Source: Gammaproteobacteria bacterium
GTDB taxonomy: Bacteria; Pseudomonadota; Gammaproteobacteria; Pseudomonadales; Azotimanducaceae
Reading direction: 5' to 3'
Assembly (NCBI GenBank): GCA_002704225.1
Contig: PAFU01000034.1
Location: 7,705 to 59,293 of the forward strand
DNA length: 51,589 nt
Shown here piece by piece: positions 3,434 to 26,292 of this stretch. The notes under the pieces were generated by a model, which did not search any database, was not told where the DNA came from, and worked only from the letters and a program-made list of their open reading frames with translations. Within the stretch, counting starts at the first letter, position 1. Each line of letters begins with the position of its first letter. The translations under genes and the position numbers were made by a program.

Positions 3434-3600
3434 AGTTTAGACGGCCTAGTCGTTAAAAAATTCGACGTCGATAATTGGCGAACTAAAAGTGGCTCGAGAG
3501 ACGCTTGCTACGTTTGTAAATCGGAAAAATTCTCTGTCCGGCCGCCCGGTTAACGGCTTATATTAGATCTTTGTTCGATAACGTACATTCTGGGAGAACT

Positions 3601-4704
3601 ATGCTGGCACCAGAAGACATTCCAGAGCACCTTGGCCCCGCAACGCAGGCGGCTCTGTCGTGGATTAACCTTCAGCGCGCATCAAATTATTCCCTGACCG
3701 GCATGATCGGTGCGGATGACCTTGAGCGAGCTGACGGACCTTTTGAAGTTGGTCTCGTTCTATGCGACGGAGAGATCTGCGCCCGAGAACAAATACGCAT
3801 CATTCCAGATGGGGATTCCTACCAATTTAAATTCGGCGCCGAGGCTGAACCAGACATTCCGCCATTGCTCGATCCGCCGGTGGGAGTTCGTCGAGAATGG
3901 CTAGATAAGCAGCTGGGAAAATACGAATTTGTCCTACTACTTTATTATCGTGGGTTGTGGTGACCCCCCTGTCGCTTCGAGTTACGAAGCTATGCGAAAG
4001 CTGGAGTGCTTGATGAAATTCGTCAGGCAGGAGGAGAGGTGTTCGGTGTAACCAGCGAACCGCAAACCCTAGCGTTAGAGGCGGAAAGAGAGTGGGAAAC
4101 TCAGTTTCCGATCATCGGTGATCCACACCATGAGATCCGTGAGGAATGCAGCGAGCGAGGCTGGCTAGACGTTTTTTACAATGAGAATGCCGGACATCTG
4201 CGCGAGCGCAAATGGGCATCTCATCCCAAAGGTTACTATCAGCCTGCTGTTGTCGCAGTGCAGCGAAGCGGACGTATATTGTATCGCTGGAGATGCGTAC
4301 CTAAGTTCAGCAACATGAGCGGCGCCGGAGCTCGCCCGGAGGCGGTTTATACTTGGGAGAAAATACAGGCCGCGCTCGCGGAAACAGAGGACGCGGCCCC
4401 TGATATCGACCCTGTTATGGGCTCAAAGGAACTTGGTTGGTTGCGATTTCTGCTGATTTTGACGGCCCATGGCTGGTTTATAAGACCGAAGGCATTTCCC
4501 CTAGGGCGAGAAGGGGATAAGCGTTCAGCATCCCCGGCGAGTATGATGGGCCGAGTATACGTTTTTGTCGCGCTTTGGTTGCTTTTGCTGCTTGTTTTAC
4601 CGCTTAAGTGGTTTGGTATGGCGCTAGCGATATGGCTCGTGGTGCTGACACCCGGTTTGATCGAGATTCATCGCCAGTTCCAACACGAACCCGATCAATA
4701 TTGA
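3601..4704 (+). CDS. Peroxiredoxin-like (AhpC/TSA family) selenoprotein candidate with C-terminal membrane anchor
   Basis: Two open segments (3601-3960 and 3964-4704) are in the same frame, separated only by TGA at 3961. Read through as selenocysteine, they give 367 residues with the motif YRGLW-U-PPC, U121 and C124, exactly where AhpC/TSA peroxiredoxin-like proteins carry WCxxC. The thioredoxin fold continues after the TGA (GEVFGVTSEP, FPIIGDP, then a VPKFSNMSGAGARPE segment usual near the end of this subfamily), so the downstream half is not a separate gene. A perfect hairpin follows the TGA at SECIS distance. Residues about 319-356 form two hydrophobic helices, so the redox domain is probably membrane-tethered. 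The ATG at 3601 has GGGAG 6 nt upstream. The likely role is thiol-dependent peroxide or disulfide chemistry. The alternative is a nonsense-mutated cysteine homologue. Confidence 0.8.
3961..3994 (+). promoter_or_regulatory. Candidate bacterial SECIS element and selenocysteine UGA
   Basis: TGA (3961-3963) is followed by a perfect 6-bp stem, GCTTCG (3974-3979) with CGAAGC (3985-3990), closing the 5-nt loop AGTTA. Three further pairs can form below a single mismatch (3970-3972 with 3992-3994). Published bacterial SECIS rules ask for a loop of 3-14 nt with a G in its first two positions and 16-37 nt between UGA and loop; here the G is second and the distance is 16 nt. Such an element recruits SelB with Sec-tRNA. 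Confidence 0.7.
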
Positions 4705-7329: not shown

Positions 7330-8256
7330 ATGGAGCGTTCAATGATACCTGCAAAAGAGACTTTCAATGGTACCTGGCCGTTTACTCCGCACTTTAGTGA
7401 CGCTTCTGGCTTTCGCCAACATTATGTTGATGAGGGGCCACGCGAGGCCGAGGTGCTGATTTGCCTGCATGGCGAGCCGACCTGGGGATACCTCTACCGC
7501 AACTTCATACCGCGATTGTCAGAGCGGTATCGTGTGATCGTCCCGGATCACATGGGTTTCGGAAAATCTGAGACACCACAGGACCGGGTGTACACCTTGC
7601 AGACTCATGTCGAGAACTTGGAGCGGTTCATCGACGATCTTGAACTTCACGATGTTACGTTCGTCTGTCAGGACTGGGGCGGGCCGATTACTGGAGCCTA
7701 TACAATTCGTCATCCCCAACGGGTCAAGCGAGTCGCCTTAATGAACACGTTATTTGGCTTCGGCGGTGGCGTGCAAAACGCGCATAAAACGCCGTGGTTT
7801 GACTGGATAGCGAGACACGAAGAAGCCGGCACTCTGCGTGGTATCTTGGGCGAATTGGGGTCCACTGTGCTTTCGGTGATGAAAATTATCGGTTTCGAAA
7901 ACTCAGCAGCTGTGGACGATACGTGGATTCGGGCTTACTCCATGCCATTTCCGAATCGTGAGAGCTGTGTCGGTGGAATTGAATTTCCCTTGGACGTCCA
8001 CTATGGGCGGATGACGGAATACATGATGGCTGGCTTGGCTACCGGCAATCTCGACGCGGTAAAAGCCAAGCCCGCAATGTTAGCGGTGGGTCTGGAAGAT
8101 CACGCGATTCACCCAGAGAACGCCATAGGAGATTTTCGTGCCCTGTTCCCTGACGCGTCTTTAGTAACGCTACCTGGTGTGGGGCACTTTTGCCAAGAAG
8201 ATGCACCGGAGACGTTAGTGACACTGATTGATCAGTTCGTACAGTCAAATCCTTAA
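7330..8256 (+). CDS. Haloalkane dehalogenase-like alpha/beta hydrolase (first copy)
   Basis: The fold motifs match subfamily-I haloalkane dehalogenases: HGEPTWGYLYR (residues 48-57, as in DhlA), PDHMGFGKS near 72-80, and the nucleophile elbow CQDWGG with D115 followed by the halide-binding Trp. The catalytic His lies in GVGHFCQED near the C-terminus, and GLEDHAI probably supplies the acid. This suggests hydrolytic removal of halide or a closely related ester or epoxide activity. An in-frame ATG at 7342 has GGAG 6 nt upstream and is a good alternative start, giving 304 residues. The leader at 7205-7260 contains a GGCCT/AGGCC inverted repeat. No signal peptide is seen. Activity on a specific halocarbon cannot be claimed. 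Confidence 0.82.
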   Translation: MERSMIPAKETFNGTWPFTPHFSDASGFRQHYVDEGPREAEVLICLHGEPTWGYLYRNFIPRLSERYRVIVPDHMGFGKSETPQDRVYTLQTHVENLERFIDDLELHDVTFVCQDWGGPITGAYTIRHPQRVKRVALMNTLFGFGGGVQNAHKTPWFDWIARHEEAGTLRGILGELGSTVLSVMKIIGFENSAAVDDTWIRAYSMPFPNRESCVGGIEFPLDVHYGRMTEYMMAGLATGNLDAVKAKPAMLAVGLEDHAIHPENAIGDFRALFPDASLVTLPGVGHFCQEDAPETLVTLIDQFVQSNP

Positions 8257-25239: not shown

Positions 25240-26292
25240 ATGTTTGACGGAAAGTATGTGATGTGGGGCGGCGAGCACAGCTTGTTTACGCGCAAGCTGC
25301 AGGCAATGCTTAACTATCTTGGCGTGGACTACGAGTTTAGATTCAAGACACAGGAAGCCGGACCGCACGTAGAGGCGCGCCTGGGAACGCATTTTATCCC
25401 GGGCCTCGAGACGCCCGAAGGGTGGTTCATACACGACTCTACGCCCATCGGTCTGATGCTGAATGCCAAGTATCCTGACCGACCGATTATGCCAAGCAGC
25501 CCAGTGCAGCGTATCGCCGCCCACTTGTTGGAGGATTGGGCAGATGAGTGGTTTGGCCGCTACGCCATCAGCAGCCGCTGGTGTTATCCACACAACATCG
25601 ATCATGTGGCCATCGGGTTTTACGCCAATGCCATCGGGAAAACTATGGCCGAGGGTTTGACCGAGGACGAGCGGGAGAAAGCGGCAGAGCAGATCCGATT
25701 TGTACGAGATAATTTTGGTCTCAAGGCCTGCGCGAACCGGGGCTGTGGTCCAGATCAGGCGGCACATGTTCGGCGCGACTTTGAACAGCTTATGGCTCAT
25801 GCGACGAAGCACTATGGTAACCACCGTTTTTTGTTGGGCGATCGGGCCAGCCTTGGCGACTTTACCTTTGCCGGACTGTTCAAAGCGCATATAGCCGCGG
25901 ATCCAGAGCCGCGCAGTTGGATAGAGGGCAGTGAGCCGGCCATGCTCGAATACATGGATCGGGTGTTTGATGCCCGTTCAGACGAGGGCCACTATCTGCC
26001 CGACGATGCCTTGCCGGATACCCTGGCGCCTTTTTTCGAGCACATGCGTGACAACTACCATCCGTTCCTTAGAGTCTCCCGCGAGGCCTTGGCGGCGGGC
26101 GAAAAGTGGTGCGAAGTAGACTTGGGTGAAGGTCCGGTGCGAATGCGCTCGCTCAAATACAGTGAGGTCAGCAGATGCCACATTGCACGGGAAATTGAGC
26201 GCTTGTCGTCGGACGACCGTGCGGCGGTGGAGCGGGTACTTGGTCCAATGGGCGTGCTCGATGCCTATTTACTGCCGCCCTTAACGTTTTGA
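25240..26292 (+). CDS. Glutathione S-transferase family protein
   Basis: The N-terminal ~85 residues have a thioredoxin-like GST layout (HSLFTRKLQAMLNYLGVDYEFRFKT, then FIPGLETPEGWFIHDSTPIGLML, with the cis-Pro region and the DST glutathione-contact position). A helical C-terminal domain follows with FLLGDRASLGDFTFAGLF, the conserved N-capping box of GSTs. At 350 residues it is longer than usual GSTs (200-230); the last ~100 residues are an extra extension. GGAGCGAGCC precedes the ATG. It is probably cotranscribed with the desaturase and may process a reactive product of that pathway. Confidence 0.8.
   Translation: MFDGKYVMWGGEHSLFTRKLQAMLNYLGVDYEFRFKTQEAGPHVEARLGTHFIPGLETPEGWFIHDSTPIGLMLNAKYPDRPIMPSSPVQRIAAHLLEDWADEWFGRYAISSRWCYPHNIDHVAIGFYANAIGKTMAEGLTEDEREKAAEQIRFVRDNFGLKACANRGCGPDQAAHVRRDFEQLMAHATKHYGNHRFLLGDRASLGDFTFAGLFKAHIAADPEPRSWIEGSEPAMLEYMDRVFDARSDEGHYLPDDALPDTLAPFFEHMRDNYHPFLRVSREALAAGEKWCEVDLGEGPVRMRSLKYSEVSRCHIAREIERLSSDDRAAVERVLGPMGVLDAYLLPPLTF

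Follow-up and report, generated by a model that had tools for sequence, protein, structure and literature searches.

Does the TGA at 3961–3963 of this gammaproteobacterial DNA end a short protein, or is it read as selenocysteine (Sec) within a longer one? We addressed this question in a stretch of 51,589 nucleotides, hereafter called the window (G000:C16:7705-59293), which belongs to an assembly of 2.9 Mb in 63 contigs (97% complete, 6.65% contamination). The gene in question occupies 3601–4704 on the plus strand. When it is read through TGA 3961–3963 as far as its ordinary stop, TGA 4702–4704, the product has 367 residues. It very probably encodes a selenoprotein, with UGA 3961 as the predicted codon of Sec121. 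We infer the insertion of Sec from computed features, namely the conserved TGA, a conserved and covarying hairpin, the Sec machinery of the genome, the domain assignment and the predicted fold. From these features and a 33-row alignment of the family, we read the product as a membrane-tailed selenoenzyme with a peroxiredoxin (Prx) fold, a thioredoxin-like UxxC motif and an N-terminal CX4C domain.

The reading frame and its TGA

An earlier note on this DNA claimed that two open segments of the same frame are parted only by TGA 3961. The frames, 3571/3601–3960 and 3964–4704, agree with this, and the start ATG of the gene is common to P0002–P0004. The note also placed the TGA at the first position of a UxxC motif, and translation gives YRGLW-U-PPC with U121. 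It further expected automatic annotation to break the gene; the list of open reading frames (ORFs) indeed contains 3571–3963 and 4006–4704 as two separate entries. Taken alone, however, the split is little evidence, because 26 TGA codons in the window divide same-frame open segments of at least 60 codons, as do 18 TAA and 8 TAG codons. Two of these splits run into genes of their own kind. At 26290, the first by length, the frame enters a separate DUF805 gene, and 19692, the third, precedes a TauD gene.

A conserved hairpin downstream of the TGA

The putative selenocysteine insertion sequence (SECIS), GCUUCG-AGUUA-CGAAGC, is located at 3974–3990 on the plus strand, with its stem at 3974–3979/3985–3990 and its loop, AGTTA, at 3980–3984. 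The stem starts 10 nt after the TGA. The perfect 6-bp stem, the 5-nt loop with G in second place and the distance of 16 nt between the TGA and the loop, all described in the earlier note, were confirmed from the sequence. The bacterial SECIS model, as given in a 2026 review (PMC13188914), has a loop of 3–9 nt, a stem of 4–16 bp, G in one of the first two loop positions, a distance of 16–37 nt from the UGA and a minimum free energy (MFE) of −7.5 or lower. The values of the hairpin all lie within this model (loop 5 nt, stem 6 bp, G in second place, distance 16 nt, MFE −9.5 kcal/mol), so the note was correct in invoking the published constraints. Perfect 6-bp hairpins within the published loop and distance limits accompany 35 of the 1815 TGA triplets on both strands of the window (1.9%), and the exact combination of loop, stem and distance is found at one of them, TGA 3961. 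The 38-nt segment folds at −9.5 kcal/mol (z −2.9), and 2 of 200 shuffles were as good. Folding of a single sequence is weak evidence for the hairpin; conservation across relatives decides.

Covariation was analyzed in a set of 31 hairpins (30 distinct), from which a masked copy (L039), a decaying copy (L040) and some further copies were left out. Pairing was found in 98.3% of the 180 hairpin cells versus 23–51% in slid controls; these controls keep the relatedness of the sequences, whereas shuffles ignore it. Two of the six stem pairs covary with changes on both sides, and 14 cells carry such double changes, a number reached by none of 500 shuffles. The percentage of paired cells, the number of double-change cells and the covariation score each lay above all 500 shuffles. 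At the same offset, all 42 distinct Sec copies examined pair at 5–6 of the 6 positions (38 of them at all six), and all 24 Cys sequences with the same motif pair at only 0–4. Three Sec sequences with the motif from outside the family were also scored there; two pair at 5 of 6 positions and the third (L133) at 1 of 6.

Within the gene, constraint is greatest at the hairpin codons: codons 125–131 show the largest excess of codon identity, beyond codon usage, among 332 codon windows. All 33 rows use CGC and GAG in the hairpin region, and for Leu128 only TTA or TTG occurs. Residues 126 and 130 (3976–3990) vary in concert, as their codons lie opposite one another in the SECIS stem. The observed pairs are F/S (16 rows), L/G (6), S/S (6), A/G (4) and R/G (1). 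This coupling via the hairpin clearly illustrates how the structure of an RNA shapes a protein sequence.

Distribution among relatives

In its own bacterial family the gene is carried by 53 of 206 genomes, at 64 places. The TGA lies inside the gene at 63 of these places, the 64th being a fragment that starts after the TGA column; a misread base is therefore excluded. No Cys version was found among the 64 places. The motif is UPPC in 42 of the 43 distinct Sec copies and URPC in a decaying one; one copy is partly masked. A search of 97 genomes, the window's own included, gave 32 strong places, with E-values of 1e-70 or lower, spread over 25 genomes. Each of them has one TGA, which is joined by two TAG codons at one place; seven further rows are weak matches. 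U is also present in all five relative loci, whose records are titled Gammaproteobacteria, Pseudomonadales or Cellvibrionales bacterium. These loci are not independent of the genomes counted here: judged from coordinates and identical hairpin regions, at least three duplicate records of those genomes (L017 = G038, L018 = G933, L020 = G843).

In wider samples of the class (369 genomes) and the phylum (398 genomes), searched at E 1e-8 with at most five candidates scored per genome, full-length matches were found only in the window's genome. The best other match was a Cys protein (L071), 29% identical, with CPWC at the place of UPPC. The earlier note had proposed an alignment with Cys homologues to see whether U121 pairs with Cys, and it does: L071 and four AhpC/TSA homologues have Cys in that column. 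No tRNA-Sec over the cut-off was found in the genome of L071, where 150 of 350 candidates were scored.

In a tree of 34 rows, one branch (support 100/100) parts the window type (18 rows) from a second type, the C62 type (15 rows), and the window's genome has one gene of each. Its root cannot be placed safely, given the great length of the Cys row.

Selenocysteine machinery of the genome

The prediction that the organism decodes Sec, with selA, selB, selC and selD to be sought in its genome, was supported. All four scored above their cut-offs: selA with 517 bits (cut-off 268), selB with 399 bits (242), tRNA-Sec with 72 bits (47) and selD, on contig C35, with 258 bits (125). On contig C19, selA (L025 5005–6435) adjoins selB (L025 6440–8290), and the tRNA-Sec gene selC (L025 11280–11372), which ARAGORN reports as tRNA-SeC with anticodon tca, is located 3 kb downstream. 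Other ORFs lie in the 3 kb between selB and selC (L025 8290–11280); in some Gammaproteobacteria, selC is reported to overlap selB (PMC13188914). Rfam and tRNA scans of the window gave no match, and Rfam at the gathering score gave none on L001, a selAB stretch that stops short of selC. A contaminant origin is unlikely, since the near relative G038, whose gene is 90% identical, also has selA and selB over the cut-offs.

Domain architecture

The N-terminal domain (3601–3885, plus strand) consists of one helix and a beta sheet. It contains the invariant Cys55 and Cys60 (CX4C) and has no Pfam match. The model used for fold comparison was based on 28 of the 33 rows, as four with masked letters and one near copy were left out; no PDB fold matched it below E 0.3, and the best hits (E 0.35, cystatin-like entries) are not trusted. 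The Prx-fold core (residues 95–263; 3883–4389, plus strand) holds UPPC at residues 121–124 and an invariant Gln214-Pro215. The window protein scores 33.6 bits against PF00578 (cut-off 26), and 33 of 33 members match this family at E 0.01. A PDB sequence search returned ResA alone (E 0.087). The C-terminal part has a hydrophobic tail (4534–4671, plus strand) with two helices, residues 312–332 and 335–357, in the AlphaFold2 secondary structure of the window protein. All 33 aligned members have a hydrophobic stretch of 19 residues in their C-terminal part, and the tail is probably a membrane anchor. Matches of the tail to FA_desaturase, found in 5 of 33 members at E 0.01, were rejected; they do not reach the gathering score and were taken as hydrophobicity.

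The description of the product as a single peroxiredoxin-like selenoprotein needs refinement. The selenoprotein assignment stands and extends to a whole family with an N-terminal domain and a hydrophobic tail. The Prx-like core also stands, but its motif is the thioredoxin-like UxxC and not the peroxidatic TxxC/TxxU of true peroxiredoxins.

Weighing the alternatives

Several observations weigh against Sec decoding. In the hairpin, four stem pairs are invariant and three cells fail to pair. On two of the five covariation measures (pairs with double changes, pair types) the hairpins do not surpass shuffles (424 and 425 of 500), and a 53-nt segment gives an ordinary fold (z 0.08; 102 of 200 shuffles as good). 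Concerning the machinery, 5 of the 25 gene-bearing genomes among the 97 are without selB over the cut-off. Three of these five are only 58–73% complete. The other two, G009 (96% complete) and G057 (91%), have neither selB nor tRNA-Sec over the cut-off, in a tRNA-Sec search that scored 150 of 711 and 150 of 655 first-look candidates, respectively. No selA match was found in G009, and the selA of G057, which is partial and lies at the end of a contig, has 262.7 bits against a cut-off of 267.9. Each of the two assemblies is in more than 500 contigs; fragmentation is a likely but unproven explanation for the missing genes. Within the family, selB is present in 20 of 25 genomes with the gene and in 28 of 36 without it (p = 1.0). 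The co-occurrence of the gene with selB over all 97 genomes (p 0.005) was dropped because it vanishes within the family.

Among the alternatives, the one that survives best also accepts a selenoprotein and assigns it another chemistry: the product would be a true peroxidase, with Cys124 as the peroxidatic and Sec121 as the resolving residue. We consider this unlikely. The invariant Gln-Pro is at what we take to be the cis-proline place of thioredoxin-like oxidoreductases, in a hand alignment with a ResA stretch, and this argues against a true peroxidase. In addition, the Sec peroxiredoxin signature PxxxTxxU, as stated in PMC13188914, is replaced by RGLWUPPC.

Far less probable is true termination at the UGA, or its use as a selenium switch, with mainly a 120-residue N-terminal protein being made and the downstream part arising from an internal start such as GTG 4006. 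The two ORFs as listed would suit this explanation, as would the fact that read-through of UGA is never complete. However, termination here would sever the Prx active site at its nucleophile. Taken alone, the first half has no Pfam match and the second half is under the PF00578 cut-off. The fit of the hairpin to the SECIS model (PMC13188914) and the presence of the sel genes also oppose a stop. A similarly small chance is left for read-through without Sec, by a Trp, Cys or near-cognate tRNA. The absence of detectable SelB and tRNA-Sec from two gene-bearing genomes that are more than 90% complete, described above, is in its favor. However, the final stop of the gene is itself TGA, the window's genome has the complete Sec machinery, and, although a SECIS is not required for read-through of this sort, no part of the gene is more constrained than the hairpin. 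The weakest alternative, a pseudogene or sequencing error in which TGC or TGT became TGA by mutation or misreading and the downstream half is decaying, can practically be dismissed: one relative copy is decaying (G027:C233, L040; two TAG besides the TGA, URPC for UPPC), but we count the TGA at 63 of 64 places, kept in independent assemblies, as already refuting it, the nonsynonymous rate is below the synonymous rate (dN 0.04–0.14 versus dS 0.18–1.9) upstream and downstream of the TGA in the three comparisons made, and codon constraint is highest at the hairpin.

Proposed mechanism

Under Sec decoding, which we prefer, SelB-GTP and Sec-tRNA(Sec) would bind the hairpin as the ribosome meets UGA 3961, and Sec121 would be inserted without termination. 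The thioredoxin-like UPPC site of the Prx-fold domain would attack through Sec121, and Cys124 would resolve this residue as a selenenyl sulphide; reduction of a disulphide or a hydroperoxide is therefore the most likely activity. The helical hairpin at the C-terminus probably holds the enzyme at the inner membrane, on its cytoplasmic side. The invariant CX4C pair of the N-terminal domain may donate electrons to the active site or accept them from it. Like the insertion of Sec, the chemistry, substrate, membrane location and electron relay are inferred.

A broader interpretation is offered tentatively, as possible rather than probable. The gene may represent a Sec-only family of membrane-tethered three-domain reductases in Pseudomonadales, composed of a CX4C relay domain, a UPPC Prx-fold core and a helical anchor. 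The family would have two well-separated Sec-keeping branches and a hairpin that dictates residues 126 and 130, and five AhpC/TSA genes of one genome would have turned to Sec.

Gene neighborhood and further candidates

No conserved gene neighborhood was seen. In a comparison whose simple ORF caller misread part of the loci, clusters beyond the gene occur in at most 3 of 20 loci, and several of these clusters are shared by near relatives only. Three of the 20 loci (window 7330–8256, L018 11406–12401, L019 2707–3672) have a related gene at most 5 kb downstream of the selenoprotein gene; by eye it is alpha/beta-hydrolase-like. No relatives were found in viral contigs, nor any of the window protein in PHROGs or plasmids (E 1e-10).

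Five of the ten PF00578 (AhpC/TSA) matches of the window's genome carry an in-frame TGA, each at WUPxC. Besides the gene described here, they are located at C62:14814-15884 (L056 5015–6085), C41:71862 (L131/L150), C41:87540 (L132/L151) and C28:6947 (L133/L147). They point to a lineage in which Sec took over several AhpC/TSA paralogues. A genome scan for the codons W-TGA-P-x-C gave 16 matches versus 5 for the reversed pattern, and only the five AhpC/TSA genes and L141 have more than 50 open codons on both sides. L141 (G000:C2:5626-5640), with 102 open codons before its W-TGA-P-x-C and 52 after, has no AhpC/TSA match and is perhaps due to chance.

Two candidates were seen in relatives. On the minus strand of L064 (G060), near a C62-type gene, is a second Prx-like UPPC candidate with its TGA at plus-strand 4257–4259 (3758 of the reverse complement); its frame runs into a long C-terminal domain that is DsbD N-terminal-like by eye only. 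L054 (G056) has FYRGHWUPFC with an in-frame TGA at 1534, an AhpC/TSA-like selenoprotein candidate that pairs at 5 of 6 positions when scored at the hairpin offset of the window gene.

Comparison with known systems

UxxC Prx-like selenoproteins are a known kind. A table of the 2026 review lists a Prx-like thiol:disulfide oxidoreductase (PF00578, UxxC/UxxU) and a redoxin family (PF08534, UxxC) (PMC13188914). The earlier note mentioned reports of such proteins from marine metagenomes, and these exist. The Global Ocean Sampling paper of 2008 describes Prx-like 1–3 with UxxC, and fusions of Prx-like 2 and 3 to unknown domains (PMC2398784), and the Sargasso paper already notes UxxC in place of TxxU.

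One close counterpart is the Prx-like thiol:disulfide oxidoreductase, or Prx-like 1. The window family shares with it a PF00578 match over the gathering score, UxxC for TxxU, a SECIS right after the UGA and CxxC Cys homologues. It differs in its added N-terminal CX4C domain and hydrophobic tail, and in having no Cys version at the 64 places in its own bacterial family. Prx-like 3 (pfam08534) fused with Unknown_3 likewise combines a UxxC Prx-like core with a fused domain containing conserved Cys (PMC2398784). Unknown_3 is described there with three conserved Cys including CxxC, whereas the window family has CX4C, the two being compared by description only; the ocean fusions, as far as they are described there, could include the window architecture.

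Of the 33 aligned members, 28 match NF040769 (SelL-related redox protein) with E-values of 0.1 or lower, the best being 4.6e-7, but the window protein reaches only 14.2 bits against a cut-off of 120. It passes no NCBIfam cut-off (June 2026). Because of this and because ORF calling splits the gene, a family present in 53 of 206 genomes of its bacterial family is likely recorded as fragments. Sec peroxiredoxins (TxxU) share the Prx fold of the predicted model; however, the Sec of the window protein is at the Thr position and not at the peroxidatic one (motifs compared by eye). The peroxidatic motif of peroxiredoxins proper, PxxxTxxC/U, is absent by the same inspection, with U in place of Thr in YRGLWUPPC. 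We did not recognize the architecture in the accessible tables of the 2026 catalogue (PMC13188914). The family adds a membrane-tailed architecture to the UxxC Prx-like selenoproteins.
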